In this document: positions 45,942 to 57,791 of the stretch, piece by piece
Numbering within the stretch: the stretch's first letter is position 1
How the letters are laid out: each line of letters starts with the position of its first letter
Source of the DNA: Sporomusaceae bacterium
GTDB lineage: Bacteria; Bacillota; Negativicutes; Acidaminococcales; JAJUGR01
Assembly (NCBI GenBank): GCA_029265905.1
Contig: JAJUGR010000002.1
Location: 1-64,000, forward strand
DNA length: 64,000 bases
Direction: 5' to 3'
Notes under the pieces: generated by a model
Database searches by the model: none
Told to the model about the DNA's origin: nothing
What the model saw: only the letters and a program-made list of their open reading frames with translations
Position numbers and translations under genes: made by a program

Positions 45942-46018
45942 CTCGTTATCATCCTTTGCAACAAAATGAAACTGCAACTAGATTATATAATGCTGAAATT
46001 GATTAAACAAGCAGGTTT

Positions 46019-46034
46019 GTTTCTGTTTTGAAAC
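46019..46034. promoter_or_regulatory. Candidate activator site upstream of the module A promoter
   Basis: GTTTC-N6-GAAAC, about 95-110 bp upstream of the -24 element, a usual distance for enhancer-binding proteins. GCAAC motifs occur nearby at about 45958, 45974, 46048 and 46057. Confidence 0.4.
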
Positions 46035-46128
46035 GAAATAAAACAAAAGCAACATTTTGCAACAAATAACCGCTTTGCCGGCACGGGGAAATATGTCTGA
46101 ATCTTGCGATAGCAAGGGGTTTGACGTT

Positions 46129-46144
46129 TGGCACGGTTTTTGCA
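46129..46144 (+). promoter_or_regulatory. Sigma-54 promoter of module A
   Basis: TGGCAC-N5-TTGCA at 46129-46144, an exact match to the -24/-12 consensus, 57 bp before the transporter start. It requires an activator such as the divergent PrpR-type protein. Confidence 0.93.
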
Positions 46145-49567: not shown

Positions 49568-50902
49568 TTGGTAAAGATCGTCGAAACCGTCCTGCGTGAC
49601 GGGCATCAATCCTTGGCTGCGACGCGGATGCGGACCAGCGACATGATTCCCATGCTGGAGCAACTGGACGAAGTGGGGTATTTCTCGCTGGAAGCGTGGG
49701 GTGGCGCCACGTTTGACAGTTGTCTGCGGTTTTTAAACGAGGATCCCTGGGAGCGGCTGCGCACCTTGAAGCGGCACGTCAAAAAGACGCCGCTGCAGAT
49801 GCTGCTCCGCGGGCAGAACATCCTCGGCTACAACCACTACGCCGATGACGTAGTGGCGGAGTTCGTCAACCGGGCCGTGGACAACGGCATCGGCGTGATC
49901 CGCGTGTTTGACGCATTAAACGATGTGCGCAACCTGGAAGTGGCGATGAAGACGGCTAAGTCGGCCGGCGCGCACGTGCAGGGGGCGCTCGTCTACACGA
50001 TCAGCCCGTACCACACCGAAGCGAGCTTTCTGCAGGTGGCGCAAGACTTGAAGCAACTGGGGGCCGACTCGATCTGCATCAAGGACATGTCGGGGCTCTT
50101 GTCGCCGTACGCGGCTTACGACCTGGTCAAGACGCTGAAAGACAACATGGATCTGCCGATCCACCTGCACACGCACTACACGAGCGGCATGGCGTCAATG
50201 ACGTACCTGAAGGCGATCGAAGCGGGGGTCGATATTGTCGACTGCGCCCTCTCGCCGTTTGCGCTGGGAACGGCGCAGCCGGCGACGGAGGCGATCGTGG
50301 CCGCCTTGGAGGGGACGCCATACGACACGGGAATCGACAAGGAGAAGCTTTACCCGATCGCCGAGCATTTCCGGACGGTGAAAAAGGACCTGGCCGACGA
50401 ATTCAAGCTCAACACGGCGATCGGCATCGACACGAAGGTGCTGTCGTTCCAGATCCCGGGCGGCATGCTGTCAAACCTCCTGAACCAGTTGAAGGAGCAG
50501 GGGATGGCGGACAAGTACCCGGAACTGTTGGAGGAGATGCCGCGCGTGCGGGCGGAGCTCGGTTATCCGCCGCTCGTGACGCCCACGAGCCAGATCACCG
50601 GTTCGATGGCGGCGTTCAACGTGATGATGGGGCGCTATAAGATCGTGCCGCGCGAGGTCAAGGACATGGTGCGCGGCAAGTACGGCCGGATGCCGGCCCC
50701 GATCGACCCGGAATTCCGCAAACTGATCATCGGCGACGAACCGGTGATCGACCACCGGCCGGCCGACGATATCGCGCCGCAATTGGAAACGTTGAAACAG
50801 GAACTGGCGGACAAGGGCTACCCCGGCGCCAGCCTGGAGGACGTGCTGTCGTACGCCTTGTTCCCAGAAGTGGCGCTGGCGTTTTTTGCTCAGCGCGCCT
50901 GA
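49568..50902 (+). CDS. oadA: Oxaloacetate decarboxylase alpha (carboxyltransferase) subunit, copy 1
   Basis: 444 aa from TTG 49568; AAGGAG at 49551-49556 precedes it, while the upstream GTG 49556 lies on that site. HMGL-like TIM barrel: VLRDGHQSLAATRMRTSDMI at the start, VGYFSLEAWGGATFDSCLRF, RGQNILGYNHYADDVV, and the catalytic lysine in SICIKDMSGLLSPYAAYDL, with metal histidines in IHLHTHYTSGMA. The C-terminal conserved carboxyltransferase region is present, but the chain stops at SLEDVLSYALFPEVALAFFA without a biotin-carrier domain (full OadA is near 590 aa), so a separate biotin protein and OadB must come from elsewhere. Predicted role: oxaloacetate to pyruvate and CO2, coupled to Na+ export. 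Confidence 0.9.
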   Translation: MVKIVETVLRDGHQSLAATRMRTSDMIPMLEQLDEVGYFSLEAWGGATFDSCLRFLNEDPWERLRTLKRHVKKTPLQMLLRGQNILGYNHYADDVVAEFVNRAVDNGIGVIRVFDALNDVRNLEVAMKTAKSAGAHVQGALVYTISPYHTEASFLQVAQDLKQLGADSICIKDMSGLLSPYAAYDLVKTLKDNMDLPIHLHTHYTSGMASMTYLKAIEAGVDIVDCALSPFALGTAQPATEAIVAALEGTPYDTGIDKEKLYPIAEHFRTVKKDLADEFKLNTAIGIDTKVLSFQIPGGMLSNLLNQLKEQGMADKYPELLEEMPRVRAELGYPPLVTPTSQITGSMAAFNVMMGRYKIVPREVKDMVRGKYGRMPAPIDPEFRKLIIGDEPVIDHRPADDIAPQLETLKQELADKGYPGASLEDVLSYALFPEVALAFFAQRA

Positions 50903-50926
50903 CGAAGCAGGGAAGGGGGCGGACGT

Positions 50927-51417: not shown

Positions 51418-51447
51418 GCATCGCAATTGCGAACGGCAGGGGGAAGT

Positions 51448-53310
51448 ATGACGAAAATTGTACTGATCGCACCGAATCGGGAAATCGCACAGAGCGCGGC
51501 GGCGGCCAAAGACGCATTCCGTTTGGATTTCGACATCTGTCACGGGGCAATGGAAGCGGCGCCGGGCACCGTGGCTGCCTTGCGCGGCAAGGGCGCTAAG
51601 GTGATTATCTCGCGCGGCGGAACGGCGCTGCTGATCAAGCAAAAAGAACGCATTCCGGTGGTCGAAATCAAGATGAGCCTGGGCGACGCCGTCCGGGCCA
51701 TTGAAGTGGCGCGGCAATACGGCAGCCGTATTATGTTTGTCGGATTTTTAAATCACGTGCAGGATTTGGACTCTTTGGGGCCGTTGCTGGGACTGGACAT
51801 CGGTCAGACGATCATCCGCGACCGGCAGGATGCGGAGGCGCAGATCAAGGCGGCGAAGGCAGGCGGGTATGACGTGATTATTGGCGGGGCGGTGCAGTGC
51901 GAGATTGCCGAAAAACTGGCGATGCCAGCCGTGTTTTTGCAAGTCGGCCTGCAATCCGTTTACAATGCTTACAATGAAGCCAAAGCGCTGCTGGAAGTGG
52001 TGCTGGAGGAAGAGCGCAAGACGGAAGAGATACGAGCGCTGCTGGACAATACGGGCGAAGGCTTTGTGGCGATCGATCGGGCCGGCCACATCACGCTCGT
52101 CAACCAGTCGGCCTTGCGGCTGTTGGGCTACGCGCGGGAAGAGCTGGTCGGCAAACCTGTCAGCGTTGCATTGCCCGGCCTTGCCAACTTGAAGGCTGTC
52201 TTGCAGGAACACGGATCCGGCAAGGATGAAGTCATCACGCTTGGCAAGCAGGTGCTGCTATACAACAAGATCCCGCTGCGGCACAATGGTGAAACAATCG
52301 GCGCCATGGCTACGTTGAAGGATGCCAAGCGGTTGTCAGAAGAAGAAGGGAAAATCCGGGTCAAGCAGCATTTGAGCGGACTGTACGCCAAGTACCGGTT
52401 TTCTGATATTATCGGCGCGAGCAAGGTTTTGGCGGAAGCCAAGCGGATTGCCGCAAGCTACGCCCGGGTCCACTCGACGGTGCTGATCACCAGCGAGTCC
52501 GGCACCGGCAAGGAAATGTTCACGCAGTCGATTCACAATGCCAGCCCGCGCAGCCAGGGGCCGTTTGTGGCCGTCAATTGTGCGGCGCTGGCGCCGGGCA
52601 TCCTGGAAAGCGAGCTGTTCGGCTATGCGGAGGGGGCGTTCAGCGGCGCGAAAAAAGGCGGCAAAATGGGCGTCTTTGAACTGGCGCACGGCGGGACGAT
52701 CTTTTTGGACGAGGTCGGCGAGGTGTCGTCCGCGCTGCAGGAAAAACTATTGCGCGTCTTGCAGGAGAGGTGCGTGATGCGGCTGGGCGACGACAAGGTT
52801 ATTCCTGTTGACGTGCGCGTGGTGGCGGCCACTAATAAGGATTTGGTCCGGGAGGTCAAGGAAGGGCGGTTTCGGGAGGACCTGTTCTTCCGTCTGAACG
52901 TGCTGCGCTTGACGATTCCGCCGCTTCGGGAACGGAAGGAAGACATCCTGGCGTTGGCACAGGCCTTTTTGAAAAAGCACGCCGTGGATCGGCCGCTGGC
53001 CGTTTCGGCGTCCGTGGAAGCGCTGCTTCAACACTATGACTGGCCGGGGAACATCCGGGAGCTGGAAAATCTCATGGAACGGCTCAGCATCATTTCCGAG
53101 CGGGGTGAGATTCGGGAACGCGATTTGCACGCCTACTTTAGCGAAATGGAAGGCTTGTGGGCCGGCAAGGCGGATGAGGTGAAGTTGGACGCGGACGAAG
53201 TGACGCGGGTGCTGGCGCTGGTGAAGGGAAACAAGACGAAGGCGGCGGTTATGCTCGGCGTGCATCGCAGCACGCTGTGGCGGTTTTTAAACGATAAAAA
53301 CGGCGATTAA
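51448..53310 (+). CDS. PrpR-type sigma-54-dependent activator (module B)
   Basis: 620 aa from ATG 51448 with CAGGGGGAAG upstream; the upstream in-frame TTG has no site. PrpR-N sensor domain at about 2-175 (TKIVLIAPNREIAQSAAAAK, KVIISRGGTALLIKQKERIP, YDVIIGGAVQCEIAEKLAMP), a PAS domain at about 190-300 (NTGEGFVAIDRAGHITLVNQ), an AAA+ domain with SESGTGKEMFTQSIHN and an ESELFGYAEGAFSGA loop, where GAFSGA replaces the canonical GAFTGA, and a short Fis-type HTH (NKTKAAVMLGVHRSTLWRFL). Paralogue of 44073-45941. It lies directly upstream of, and co-directional with, a sigma-54-driven operon it probably activates. Confidence 0.9.
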   Translation: MTKIVLIAPNREIAQSAAAAKDAFRLDFDICHGAMEAAPGTVAALRGKGAKVIISRGGTALLIKQKERIPVVEIKMSLGDAVRAIEVARQYGSRIMFVGFLNHVQDLDSLGPLLGLDIGQTIIRDRQDAEAQIKAAKAGGYDVIIGGAVQCEIAEKLAMPAVFLQVGLQSVYNAYNEAKALLEVVLEEERKTEEIRALLDNTGEGFVAIDRAGHITLVNQSALRLLGYAREELVGKPVSVALPGLANLKAVLQEHGSGKDEVITLGKQVLLYNKIPLRHNGETIGAMATLKDAKRLSEEEGKIRVKQHLSGLYAKYRFSDIIGASKVLAEAKRIAASYARVHSTVLITSESGTGKEMFTQSIHNASPRSQGPFVAVNCAALAPGILESELFGYAEGAFSGAKKGGKMGVFELAHGGTIFLDEVGEVSSALQEKLLRVLQERCVMRLGDDKVIPVDVRVVAATNKDLVREVKEGRFREDLFFRLNVLRLTIPPLRERKEDILALAQAFLKKHAVDRPLAVSASVEALLQHYDWPGNIRELENLMERLSIISERGEIRERDLHAYFSEMEGLWAGKADEVKLDADEVTRVLALVKGNKTKAAVMLGVHRSTLWRFLNDKNGD

Positions 53311-53327
53311 CGTCGTGACAATGGATC

Positions 53328-53374
53328 AAAAGCGTTGCAAGCAACAAAAATGTGTTGCTTGCAACGCTTTTTTT
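53328..53374 (+). terminator. Terminator of the regulator gene that also contains two activator-like dyads
   Basis: A perfect 19-bp stem (53328-53346 with 53353-53371), 6-nt loop, and a T-run to 53374. Each arm is itself a palindrome: GTTGC-AA-GCAAC at 53334-53345 and GTTGC-TT-GCAAC at 53354-53365. They lie 66-97 bp upstream of the -24 box at 53431, the usual place for enhancer-binding protein sites. Confidence 0.85.
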
Positions 53375-53430
53375 CAGGCGTCGGGGCCCGCCGCTGCCTG
53401 AAAACCGTGGAATTTTCCAAATTCTCAAGT

Positions 53431-53446
53431 TGGCACGCTTTTTGCA
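53431..53446 (+). promoter_or_regulatory. Sigma-54 promoter of module B
   Basis: TGGCAC-N5-TTGCA, exact -24/-12 consensus, 39 bp before the first start codon; almost the same sequence as the module A promoter. Confidence 0.93.
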
Positions 53447-53484
53447 TTTAAAGTTGGATAGATAAAAATGAAGGAGGCCTGATG

Positions 53485-54330
53485 ATGGCTAGAGTGTTAA
53501 ACACGGAAGTCCTGGTACCTGTGCTGGAAAGACTGGTCAAGAAGGCGTGCTACGAACTGAATGACAATGTGATGTGTGCGTTGCGCGCTGCGTATGACGT
53601 GGAAGAGTCGCCGATCGGCAAGGAAACGATTAAAGTCCTCATTGAAAACGGCGAGTTTGCTAAAAAAGAACAACTGCCGTGCTGTCACGATACTGGCGCG
53701 GCTGTGGTTTACCTGGAAATTGGCCAAGATGTGGCCTGGGAGGGGAAACCGCTTAAAGAGCAGATCAATGAAGGCGTGCGCCAGGGCTACGACAAGGGCT
53801 ACCTGAGAAAATCCATGGTCGCCGATCCTTTGGAACGCGTCAACACTGGCGACAACACGCCGGCGATCGTCCACACGGAAATCGTGCCGGGCGACAAAGT
53901 GACGGTTCACGTCATGCCCAAAGGCGGCGGCAGCGAAAACATGGGGGCCTTTAAAGTGCTGCTGCCGGGCGACGGCGTGCAGGGCGTCAAAGACTTTGTG
54001 CTGGAAACCGTTAAACGCGTGGGCGGCAATCCCTGCCCGCCGTACATCATCGGCGTCGGGGTGGGCGGCACGATGGATCACTGCGCCTGGATGGCGAAGA
54101 AAGCGCTGTTCCGCCCGATTGGCGAGCGGCACGCGAAACCCTTGTACGCCGAAATGGAAGAAGACATCCTCAAGGCCGTCAATGACACCGGCGTCGGTCC
54201 GCTCGGCATGGGCGGCCGCGTGACCGCACTTGATGTGCATATCGATTATTATCCGGTTCATATTACCGCGCTGCCGGTGGCAATCAATTTTGCCTGCAAT
54301 TCGGCCCGCCAAGCATCGGAAACCATTTGA
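53485..54330 (+). CDS. ttdA: L(+)-tartrate dehydratase/class I fumarase alpha subunit
   Basis: 281 aa from ATG 53485 (AAGGAGG at 53471-53477; ATG 53482 is an alternative). [4Fe-4S] hydro-lyase: cluster cysteines in QLPCCHDTGAAVVYLEIGQD and in the pair GGNPCPPYIIGVGVGGTMDH-C; AIVHTEIVPGDKVTVHVMPK and GGGSENMGAFKVLLPGDGVQ are conserved family segments. Split alpha/beta form. TtdAB and two-subunit fumarase cannot be told apart by eye; the neighbouring transporter and oxaloacetate decarboxylase favour tartrate, since its dehydration gives oxaloacetate directly. Confidence 0.88.
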   Translation: MARVLNTEVLVPVLERLVKKACYELNDNVMCALRAAYDVEESPIGKETIKVLIENGEFAKKEQLPCCHDTGAAVVYLEIGQDVAWEGKPLKEQINEGVRQGYDKGYLRKSMVADPLERVNTGDNTPAIVHTEIVPGDKVTVHVMPKGGGSENMGAFKVLLPGDGVQGVKDFVLETVKRVGGNPCPPYIIGVGVGGTMDHCAWMAKKALFRPIGERHAKPLYAEMEEDILKAVNDTGVGPLGMGGRVTALDVHIDYYPVHITALPVAINFACNSARQASETI

Positions 54331-54357
54331 TTTTATCAAGAGAAGGAGTTGGCTAGC

Positions 54358-54906
54358 ATGGAAATGGAAATAACCTTGCCGTTGACAAAAGAAAAAGCCA
54401 AAACGCTAAAGGCCGGAGACATACTGTATTTGACCGGCTACGTTTATACCTGCCGCGACGCTGCGCATAAATTGATTGAAGAAGCGCTGGCAAAGGGCGA
54501 AAAATCCCCCATTGACTGGCAGGATCAGACCGTATATTATGCCGGACCCTGTCCGGCGCGCCCGGGAATGGTGTTTGGTTCGAATGGGCCGACGACAGCT
54601 TCGCGCATGGATCCGTTTGTTGAGATGATGTTTCAGCAAGGCATGGTTGCGATGCTGGGAAAAGGCGATCGTGCGGATTACGTGGCTGATTTGTGCAAGA
54701 AGTATGGCGGCGTTTCTCTGCTGGGGGTTGGCGGCGCCTCGGCGGTCAATGCTGCCCGCGTCAAATCGGTCGAAATTGTCGCGTACCCGGAACTGGGAAC
54801 CGAGTCGATCAAGAAGCTGCATTTTGACCGCTACCGTGTCATTGTTGGGACGGATACGGAGGGCAACGTGCTGCAAAAACAGGAAGTGCCCAAGTATAGA
54901 CGATAA
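54358..54906 (+). CDS. ttdB: L(+)-tartrate dehydratase/class I fumarase beta subunit
   Basis: 182 aa from ATG 54358 (AAGGAG upstream; TTG 54349 is too close to it). Fe-hydro-lyase C-terminal domain: LKAGDILYLTGYVYTCRDAA, YYAGPCPARPGMVFGSNGPT, TASRMDPFVEMMFQQGMVAM and YGGVSLLGVGGASAVNAARV; the GPTTASRMD motif binds substrate. Pairs with the alpha subunit 27 bp upstream. Confidence 0.88.
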   Translation: MEMEITLPLTKEKAKTLKAGDILYLTGYVYTCRDAAHKLIEEALAKGEKSPIDWQDQTVYYAGPCPARPGMVFGSNGPTTASRMDPFVEMMFQQGMVAMLGKGDRADYVADLCKKYGGVSLLGVGGASAVNAARVKSVEIVAYPELGTESIKKLHFDRYRVIVGTDTEGNVLQKQEVPKYRR

Positions 54907-54951: not shown

Positions 54952-54994
54952 GCCGTTTATGGCTGTGCGGCAATAAATGATAGGAGGCGTCAAT

Positions 54995-56398
54995 GTGAAG
55001 GGGAACATTGCAAAGGGGCTCGGAGTGCTGGCGGTCGGCGTAATCATCTGGTTTATGCCCGTTCCGGTCGGGCTCAAACCTGCGGCCTGGAAATTATTCG
55101 CTGTTTTTATGGCGACGATCCTGGGATTTATTCTACAACCATTGCCGATCGGCGCCATTGCTTTTATCAGTATTACGTTTACGGCGCTAACGGGCGTGCT
55201 GAAGCCGGCCGAAGCGTTGTCCGGGTTTGGCGATACCACGATTTGGCTGATTGTGTCAGCCTTTTTGTTTGCCAAAGGGTTCATCAAGACCGGTCTGGGC
55301 CGGCGGATCGCGTACCTGCTGATCCGAAAGATGGGCGACAGCACGCTGAAGCTGGGCTACACGATTGTGCTCAGCGACCTGATTATCAGTCCGGCCACGC
55401 CGTCCAACGCCGCCCGCGCCGGCGGGATTATCTTTCCGATCGTGCGCAGCCTGGCGTCGGCTTTCGATTCGGAGCCGGGGCCGTCGGCGCGCCGGGTGGG
55501 GTCGTTTTTGATGCAGACCGGCTACCAGGGCAACACGATTACTTCCGCGATGTTTATGACCGCAATGGCGGGCAATCCGCTGATTTCCCTGTTGGCGGCG
55601 CAGGCGCTGAACATTCAAATCACGTGGGGGCAGTGGGCGCTGGCCGCCTCGGTGCCCGGCGTGCTGTCGCTATTGGTGGTGCCTTATTTCATTTATAAGG
55701 CGTATCCGCCGGAACTGAAAAAAACGCCGGAGGCGAAAGCCTTTGCCGCCGGCGAGCTGGAAAAGATGGGGGCGATGTCCCTTGGTGAGAAAATTGTCGC
55801 CGGAATCTTTATCGGCGCGTTGGCCTTATGGAGCACTTCCCAGTATACAAACCTGAATGCCACGGTTGTCGCCATGCTGGCGGTTTCTGTTATGCTGGGT
55901 ACTCGGGTCTTGGAATGGAAGGACGTGTTGGAGGAAAAAGGCGCTTGGGATACTTTGGTTTGGATGGGGGCGTTGGTTGGCTTAGCCGGTTACCTGTCTA
56001 AACTCGGCTTTATCCCTTGGTTTTCCAAGGCGGTTGGGGCCAGCATTGCGGGCGTGCCCTGGTTTCAAGCCTTCGTGGTCTTGCTCGTCATCTACATGTA
56101 CGCCCACTACGGTTTCGCCAGCCTGACCGCGCATATTACTGCGATGTACTCGGCGTTCGTCACTGTGGCGGTCGCCGCGGGCGCGCCCGTGTACCTGGCG
56201 GCCTTGGCGCTGGCCTTCATGTCGAATTTGTGCATGTCTCTGACGCATTACGCGGCGGCGCCGGCCCCGATTTATTTCGGCGCTGGCTATGTCGACCAAG
56301 GCACCTGGTGGAAGCTGGGCTTCATGGTTTCGGTGATCAACATCGTCATCTGGGTTGGCGTCGGCTCGCTGTGGTGGAAAGCGCTCGGTCTTTGGTAG
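54995..56398 (+). CDS. DASS (SLC13/TtdT)-family dicarboxylate transporter, module B
   Basis: 467 aa from GTG 54995; ATAGGAGG just upstream gives a 7-nt spacing, and the ATG at 54977 lies before that site. Same topology and motifs as the module A transporter: LGFILQPLPIGAIAFISITF, FGDTTIWLIVSAFLFAKGFI, SPATPSNAARAGGIIFPIV and NLCMSLTHYAAAPAPIYFGA. One visible difference lies in the signature hairpin (SNT in A, SNA in B), which may reflect substrate choice. In E. coli the tartrate transporter TtdT belongs to this family and is coded with ttdAB. Predicted to import tartrate (or exchange it for a product). Confidence 0.9.
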   Translation: MKGNIAKGLGVLAVGVIIWFMPVPVGLKPAAWKLFAVFMATILGFILQPLPIGAIAFISITFTALTGVLKPAEALSGFGDTTIWLIVSAFLFAKGFIKTGLGRRIAYLLIRKMGDSTLKLGYTIVLSDLIISPATPSNAARAGGIIFPIVRSLASAFDSEPGPSARRVGSFLMQTGYQGNTITSAMFMTAMAGNPLISLLAAQALNIQITWGQWALAASVPGVLSLLVVPYFIYKAYPPELKKTPEAKAFAAGELEKMGAMSLGEKIVAGIFIGALALWSTSQYTNLNATVVAMLAVSVMLGTRVLEWKDVLEEKGAWDTLVWMGALVGLAGYLSKLGFIPWFSKAVGASIAGVPWFQAFVVLLVIYMYAHYGFASLTAHITAMYSAFVTVAVAAGAPVYLAALALAFMSNLCMSLTHYAAAPAPIYFGAGYVDQGTWWKLGFMVSVINIVIWVGVGSLWWKALGLW

Positions 56399-56424: not shown

Positions 56425-57768
56425 ATGGCAAAGTCGGTAAAAATCGTCGAAACCGTCCTGCGTGACGGTCATCAATCCTTGGCTGCGACGCGGATGCGGA
56501 CCAGCGACATGATTCCCATGCTGGAGCAACTGGACGAGGTGGGGTATTTCTCGCTGGAAGCGTGGGGTGGCGCCACGTTTGACAGTTGTTTGCGGTTTTT
56601 AAACGAGGATCCCTGGGAGCGGCTGCGCACCCTGAAGCGGCACGTCAAAAAGACGCCGCTGCAGATGCTGCTCCGCGGGCAGAACATTCTCGGCTACAAC
56701 CACTACGCCGATGACGTGGTGACAGAGTTCGTCAACCGGGCCGTGGACAACGGCATCGGCGTGATCCGCGTGTTTGATGCGTTAAACGATGTGCGCAACC
56801 TGGAAGTGGCGATGAAGACGGCCAAGGCGGCCGGCGCGCACGTGCAGGGGGCGCTCGTCTACACGATCAGCCCGTACCACACCGAAGCGAGCTTTTTGCA
56901 GGTCGCCAAAGACTTGAAGCAGCTGGGGGCCGACTCGATCTGTATCAAGGACATGTCGGGCCTCTTGTCGCCGTACGCGGCTTACGACCTGGTCAAGACG
57001 CTCAAAGACAACATGGACCTGCCGATCCACCTGCACACGCACTACACGAGCGGCATGGCGTCGATGACGTACCTGAAGGCGATCGAAGCAGGCGTCGACA
57101 TTGTCGACTGCGCCCTGTCGCCGTTTGCGCTGGGGACGGCGCAGCCGGCGACGGAGGCGATCGTGGCCGCCCTGGAGGGGACGCCGTACGACACGGGGAT
57201 CGACAAGGAGAAGCTTTACCCGATCGCCGAGCATTTCCGGACGGTGAAAAAAGACCTGGCCGACGAATTCAAGCTCAACACGGCGATCGGCATCGACACG
57301 AAGGTGCTGTCGTTCCAGATCCCGGGCGGCATGCTGTCAAACCTCTTGAACCAGTTGAAGGAGCAGGGGATGGCGGACAAGTACCCGGAACTGTTGGAGG
57401 AGATGCCGCGCGTGCGGGCGGAGCTTGGCTATCCGCCGCTCGTGACGCCGACGAGCCAGATCACCGGCTCGATGGCGGCGTTCAACGTGATGATGGGGCG
57501 CTACAGCCTGGTGCCGCGCGAGGTCAAGGACATGGTGCGGGGCAAGTACGGCCGCATGCCGGCCCCGATCGACCCGGAATTCCGCAAACTGATCATCGGC
57601 GACGAACCGGTGATCGACCACCGGCCGGCCGACGATATCGCGCCGCAATTGGAAACGTTGAGACAGGAGCTGGCGGACAAGGGCTACCCTGGCGTGAGCC
57701 TGGAGGACGTGCTGTCGTACGCCTTGTTCCCGGAAGTGGCGCTGGCGTTCTTTGCCCAGCGCGCCTGA
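56425..57768 (+). CDS. oadA: Oxaloacetate decarboxylase alpha (carboxyltransferase) subunit, copy 2
   Basis: 447 aa from ATG 56425 (CGGAG upstream). Nearly identical to copy 1 from VKIVETVLRDGHQSLAATRM to FFAQRA; the few differences seen include T for A in DDVVTEFVNRA, A for S in MKTAKAAGAHV, SL for KI in GRYSLVPREV, R for K in LETLRQEL and V for A in YPGVSLEDV. The DNA is also near-identical, including stretches of more than 100 bases at the 5' end. It too lacks a biotin-carrier domain. It would decarboxylate the oxaloacetate formed by TtdAB. Confidence 0.9.
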   Translation: MAKSVKIVETVLRDGHQSLAATRMRTSDMIPMLEQLDEVGYFSLEAWGGATFDSCLRFLNEDPWERLRTLKRHVKKTPLQMLLRGQNILGYNHYADDVVTEFVNRAVDNGIGVIRVFDALNDVRNLEVAMKTAKAAGAHVQGALVYTISPYHTEASFLQVAKDLKQLGADSICIKDMSGLLSPYAAYDLVKTLKDNMDLPIHLHTHYTSGMASMTYLKAIEAGVDIVDCALSPFALGTAQPATEAIVAALEGTPYDTGIDKEKLYPIAEHFRTVKKDLADEFKLNTAIGIDTKVLSFQIPGGMLSNLLNQLKEQGMADKYPELLEEMPRVRAELGYPPLVTPTSQITGSMAAFNVMMGRYSLVPREVKDMVRGKYGRMPAPIDPEFRKLIIGDEPVIDHRPADDIAPQLETLRQELADKGYPGVSLEDVLSYALFPEVALAFFAQRA

Positions 57769-57791
57769 CGAAGCAGGGAAGGGGGGCGGAA

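Follow-up and report, generated by a model that had tools for sequence, protein, structure and literature searches.

The 44-bp element that separates the gene of a putative bacterial enhancer-binding protein from the sigma-54 promoter of the next operon is, with high probability, bifunctional: the sequence comparisons point to a pair of tandem palindromic activator sites which form a hairpin by necessity and double as the terminator of the regulator gene. Since tandem copies of one palindrome constitute an inverted repeat, the hairpin comes automatically. Further, the comparisons indicate that both uses of the element are under selection, in that the flanking stem pairs covary and the half-sites, the spacing of the dyads and their distance from the promoter are kept.

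In the mechanism proposed here, the regulator encoded just upstream would bind both dyads (half-site GTTGC, or GTTKC in generalized form) as dimers, which would oligomerize and reach the sigma-54 polymerase at 53431 via DNA looping, thereby switching on the hydro-lyase/transporter operon. In the RNA, the two palindrome copies would pair with each other and, together with the T run, act as the intrinsic terminator of the regulator gene, insulating the operon from read-through. A regulator that depends on two dimer sites spaced by about two helical turns would hence obtain the hairpin free, with the outer pairs and the T run completing the terminator. We infer protein binding, looping and termination from established sigma-54 and terminator biology.

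Organization of the focal junction

The features of the junction are collected in Table 1, with coordinates in the window, i.e., the whole 64,000-nucleotide stretch of DNA that was analysed. The regulator combines PrpR_N (3.2e-43), PAS (5.5e-11), Sigma54_activat (1.3e-64) and HTH_8 (8.6e-7) domains in Pfam searches, and its Fis-type HTH has the sequence ...LGVHRSTLWRFLN. The first gene of the downstream operon probably encodes a subunit of an L-tartrate dehydratase or of a fumarase.

Table 1. Features of the regulator-to-operon junction (positions in the window)
Feature	Position	Strand	Basis
Regulator gene (putative bacterial enhancer-binding protein)	51448..53310	+	Pfam
Predicted intrinsic terminator hairpin of the regulator gene	53328..53371	+	Stem of 19 bp without mismatch, loop of 6 nt, T tail reaching 53374
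Distal candidate UAS dyad GTTGC-AA-GCAAC, 5' arm	53334..53345	.	Exact dyad
Proximal candidate UAS dyad GTTGC-TT-GCAAC, 3' arm	53354..53365	.	Exact dyad
Sigma-54 (-24/-12) promoter TGGCACGCTTTTTGCA of the next operon	53431..53446	+	12/12 consensus positions
Hydro-lyase alpha part (fumarase-type, class I), first gene of the operon	53482..54330	+	Pfam Fumerase 8.6e-108
Hydro-lyase beta part, partner of 53482-54330	54349..54906	+	Pfam Fumerase_C 3.3e-49
Dicarboxylate/sulfate:sodium symporter (DASS family)	54977..56398	+	Pfam Na_sulph_symp 2.1e-165

The hairpin starts 18 bp past the regulator stop codon and consists of the arm AAAAGCGTTGCAAGCAACA (53328-53346), the loop AAAATG and the arm TGTTGCTTGCAACGCTTTT (53353-53371), followed by TTT to give a T7 tail overall. 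It is the minimum-energy RNA fold, with a value of -42.3 kcal/mol for the region (z = -8.0), and thus presents the stable stem-loop with a T run, 3' of a gene, that is structurally typical of intrinsic terminators. Both dyads are at the same time symmetric sites upstream of a -24/-12 promoter, as befits an upstream activating sequence (UAS); they read CGT-N8-ACA and TGT-N8-ACG, and the pair begins 97 bp and ends 66 bp before the promoter TGG, with centres at 91.5 and 71.5 bp, 20 bp apart. The sequence-only reading had described a 19-bp terminator with a GTTGC-N2-GCAAC palindrome in each arm, 66-97 bp before a perfect sigma-54 promoter, and this description holds in full: the dyads are exact, the stem is perfect, the distances are right and the promoter agrees with every consensus position.

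How far the single locus can carry the argument depends on the frequency of such dyads by chance. Among random 19-nt arms a perfect 5+5 dyad with a spacer of 0-7 occurs in about 4-5%, and one with an N2 spacer in about 1%; shuffles of the focal arm contain a dyad in 11% of cases. As a palindrome yields a palindrome on reverse complementation, the two dyads amount to one coincidence, not two. Single-locus significance was therefore dropped as a sufficient proof, the chance being ~5% and the second dyad automatic; the focal locus on its own is suggestive at most of a double use, and it is the comparative data that carry the significance. These background frequencies favour an account in which the element is an intrinsic terminator and nothing else, the palindromes being a chance by-product of the stem and the true activator site lying elsewhere, and a hairpin with a T tail is indeed the textbook form of a terminator. 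Between the regulator stop codon and the promoter, however, no GTTKC dyad was found besides those in the hairpin; the comparisons described below bear on this account further.

Conservation in orthologous loci

Orthologues of the regulator that are 67% identical to it occur in Pelosinus propionicus (L079/L159) and in the soil MAG CTSoil_075 (L078/L158), and only three true orthologues are present in the data. Both of these loci keep the order of regulator, hairpin and sigma-54 promoter together with the dyads, and the focal promoter aligns with a promoter in each; the Pelosinus operon likewise encodes this hydro-lyase pair, preceded by a transporter that differs from the focal one. The distal dyad is GTTGCAAGAAAC in both, and the proximal dyad is GTTTCTTGCAAC in Pelosinus and GTTTCTTGAAAC in CTSoil_075, on account of which the motif was generalized to GTTKC-N2-GMAAC. 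Conservation of the sites with their cognate regulator across species, as is characteristic of a UAS, is hence seen in the three orthologues, with related N2 dyads at two further loci, L275 and L160. The stem beyond the dyads (AAAAGC...GCTTTT) and the T tail are likewise present in all three orthologues.

The differences between these stems include natural variants of the arm changes that had been named earlier as a means of separating the two uses. Relative to the window, the Pelosinus stem has a compensatory pair, C-G to A-T, and CTSoil_075 has one further change, which leaves a G opposite an A in the RNA stem but gives a perfect 3' dyad, GTTTC-TT-GAAAC; in the latter, pairing is broken and the dyad is kept.

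Survey of regulator-to-sigma-54 junctions

The survey set comprised 88 regulator-to-sigma-54-promoter junctions, grouped into 59 clusters by HTH similarity. Over all arms, perfect dyads were counted in 13 of 51 as against 3.1 expected, a count that was replaced by cluster-level motif tests because the members are related. Of the 43 regulator clusters, 9 have GTTKC-N2/5/6-GMAAC within the terminator, as against a single case among 169 control hairpins of terminator-like form (p=2.4e-6), a control set cleared of opposite-strand readings of the surveyed junctions. The choice of motif and spacings drew in part on the very junctions tested, a circularity that is lessened by the pattern search and by negative-control spacings. 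The same half-sites at spacers of 0, 1, 3, 4, 7 and 8 show no difference from the controls (2/43 versus 8/169, p=0.64).

Two architectures can be distinguished among the merged junctions. In the arm type, each arm holds one dyad, as in the window, L158, L159, L172/L173/L176, L164, L205, L084 and L230, and the centres of the tandem dyads lie 20-24 bp apart, a spacing seen in 10 junctions. In the apex type (e.g., L181, L193, L198, L087 and L196) the proximal dyad itself is the hairpin, and several have a weaker second dyad 21-22 bp upstream. Most regulator-to-operon junctions, including others in the focal genome, have a terminator and a likely activator site that are separate. Merged junctions are shorter on average than separate ones, a difference that is too weak to use (p=0.035, with the same motif test).

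Three other hairpins resemble these. In the focal genome, the terminator behind another regulator, with an NtrC-like HTH (L043, G000 C6 about 55500), measures 25 bp and has the apex TGTGCAA-CAAA-TTGCACA as a candidate activator dyad, an apex type with a different motif. At the L080 junction of Thermohalobacter berrensis, a terminator arm with the perfect palindrome TGTATTATACA precedes a sigma-54 promoter and might be a further merged case, with unrelated half-sites. L261, in the class genome G132, is an arm-type hairpin with the dyads GTTGC-N5-GATAC and GTTTC-N5-GCAAC, its RNA mismatches falling mostly in the spacer.

Pattern search in the class

In the class, 381 genomes were searched for GTTKC-N5-GMAAC followed at 38-68 bp by TGGCAY-N5-TTGC, with the reversed pattern as control. 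The search returned 16 matches versus 2 for the control, comprising four junctions already in the set, one non-junction promoter already encountered in the survey and about eleven new loci, seven of which lie 21-48 bp behind a detected relative of the regulator. In all but two of the 16, i.e., in 14, the proximal N5 dyad and the promoter are separated by 51 or 52 bp, a distribution far from uniform over the allowed range. Helical phasing of the dyad-promoter distances looks suggestive at a p of about 7e-4, but no longer does so at about 0.06, the value after collapsing the 60-bp cases. The N2 version of the pattern gave four matches and none in the control, namely the three orthologues and L275, where tandem N2 dyads lie 80 bp from the TGG and the terminator is separate; the N2 dyads are therefore not a by-product of hairpins.

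These results bear on the account that regards the element as a terminator only. The conservation is sequence-specific despite 67% protein identity, the enrichment is confined to activator-like spacings at regulator-to-sigma-54 junctions and the dyad-promoter distance is fixed, all of which render that account improbable. They also bear on the possibility that the dyads are bound by another protein, such as a repressor or a nucleoid protein, instead of the adjacent regulator. Symmetrical sites would suit many HTH dimers; however, across clades the dyads accompany the regulator gene and a sigma-54 promoter, and their geometry fits enhancer-binding proteins. Moreover, a check of GTTKC-N2-GMAAC sites elsewhere in this genome, as further targets of the regulator, found none near a strong sigma-54 promoter. 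Binding by another protein is thus scarcely credible, and the adjacent regulator is the presumed ligand.

RNA pairing and DNA symmetry in the same stem

If the element answers to two demands, changes in the stem should respect both. In 15 apex-type hairpins, 98.2% of the cells of the outer stem are paired, with 25 double changes against a shuffled mean of 6.0, so that these pairs covary strongly, as RNA pairing requires; only this outer-stem covariation counts, as the half-site invariance in the apex rows is partly by construction, most rows having been fetched by the half-site pattern. Among the arm-type stems, the unpaired RNA positions of L164 and L084 fall in the dyad spacer and spare the half-sites, and the sole break of half-site pairing is that of L158, where the DNA dyad improves.

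This pattern helps to weigh the converse account, namely that the element consists of two tandem palindromic UAS copies that mimic a terminator, with termination negligible or unselected. It draws on the fact that tandem palindromes must form a hairpin, and on L160, the lone control match in the survey. There, N2 dyads without a terminator role lie between a divergent sigma-54 promoter and a regulator homologue of 48% identity (HTH HRSTLWRW); they sit in a similar hairpin, T run included, in front of the regulator gene, where no same-strand upstream gene needs a terminator. Against it stand the stem of the three orthologues, which exceeds the dyads and ends in a T tail, the covarying outer pairs in the apex-type relatives and the terminator-type T runs behind most of these hairpins. 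We consider an activator site devoid of a selected terminator function very improbable and prefer the bifunctional element.

The idea advanced from the sequence alone, that the arms serve as duplex DNA sites and also as an RNA terminator, therewith gains computational support, the dyads being conserved, specific to these junctions and activator-like in geometry, with two helical turns between them and a near-fixed promoter distance. Two points go beyond it: tandem palindromes fold into a hairpin automatically, and the architecture is general.

Comparison with known systems

The nearest analogue of the focal element is provided by the DNA uptake signal sequences of Neisseria and Pasteurellaceae, which double as terminators (PMC1852404). 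In both, a duplex motif read by a protein occurs in paired copies whose RNA is an intrinsic terminator, as predicted for the focal element. The uptake-signal motifs, however, are non-palindromic, number in the hundreds in the genome and function in DNA uptake, whereas the focal element has two palindromic copies that constitute a putative local enhancer for one operon. An abundant genome-wide terminator motif is not what is seen here: across its 2.42 Mb the genome contains the exact 12-mer dyad only four times, and two of these are the focal dyads.

The sites resemble the UAS of sigma-54 enhancer-binding proteins (PMC6615313; FhlA, NifA) in being inverted repeats, frequently more than one, that lie 5' of a -24/-12 promoter and beside the regulator gene. 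They differ in forming the predicted terminator of the regulator gene and in a dyad shorter than TGT-N10-12-ACA; the N2 dyad is also shorter than the commoner N5/N6 sites. That survey of Clostridiales sigma-54 regulons reports UAS motifs, often multiple, and its text makes no mention of terminators (PMC6615313). With ordinary intrinsic (Rho-independent) terminators the element shares a GC-containing stem, a short loop and a T tail past the stop codon, but its arms are constrained beyond pairing, each being a palindrome with conserved half-sites. A literature search of open-licence papers found no report of a terminator that contains a UAS or activator site. The parts themselves are familiar, and it is their recurrent fusion that seems undescribed.

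The element places one stretch of DNA under two sequence codes, duplex recognition by a protein and RNA folding, which natural variants separate. It also offers a computational route to the activator sites of uncharacterized sigma-54 regulators, in that these sites could be read from the terminator that follows the regulator gene. A caution also arises for experiments at such junctions, since replacing the terminator or truncating a reporter there would delete the enhancer. Whether a bound activator affects termination of its own gene becomes testable. The wider proposal that sigma-54 regulator genes of Negativicutes and other Firmicutes recurrently use the enhancer-terminator fusion as a design principle, and that, in addition, the bound regulator alters its own termination or read-through so as to link regulator level and operon activation by feedback, is speculative and taken as a whole unlikely.

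Other features of the window

Upstream of the focal junction (module B), the perfect palindrome TCGCAATTGCGA (51421-51432), adjoined by a (GCAGAA)n-like run, lies shortly 5' of the regulator gene start and might be an autoregulatory site; its conservation in Pelosinus is not evident. In module A (45978-46144), the regulator is divergent from the sigma-54 promoter (46129) and no terminator lies in between; its probable activator sites are GTTTC-N6-GAAAC, centred 102 bp before the TGG, and CTTGC-N4-GCAAG at 46103-46116. Each dicarboxylate module ends in a copy of an oxaloacetate/pyruvate-carboxylase-type decarboxylase subunit gene (49570-50923 and 56436-57790), and the 96% DNA identity of the two over 1355 bp points to a recent duplication or gene conversion.
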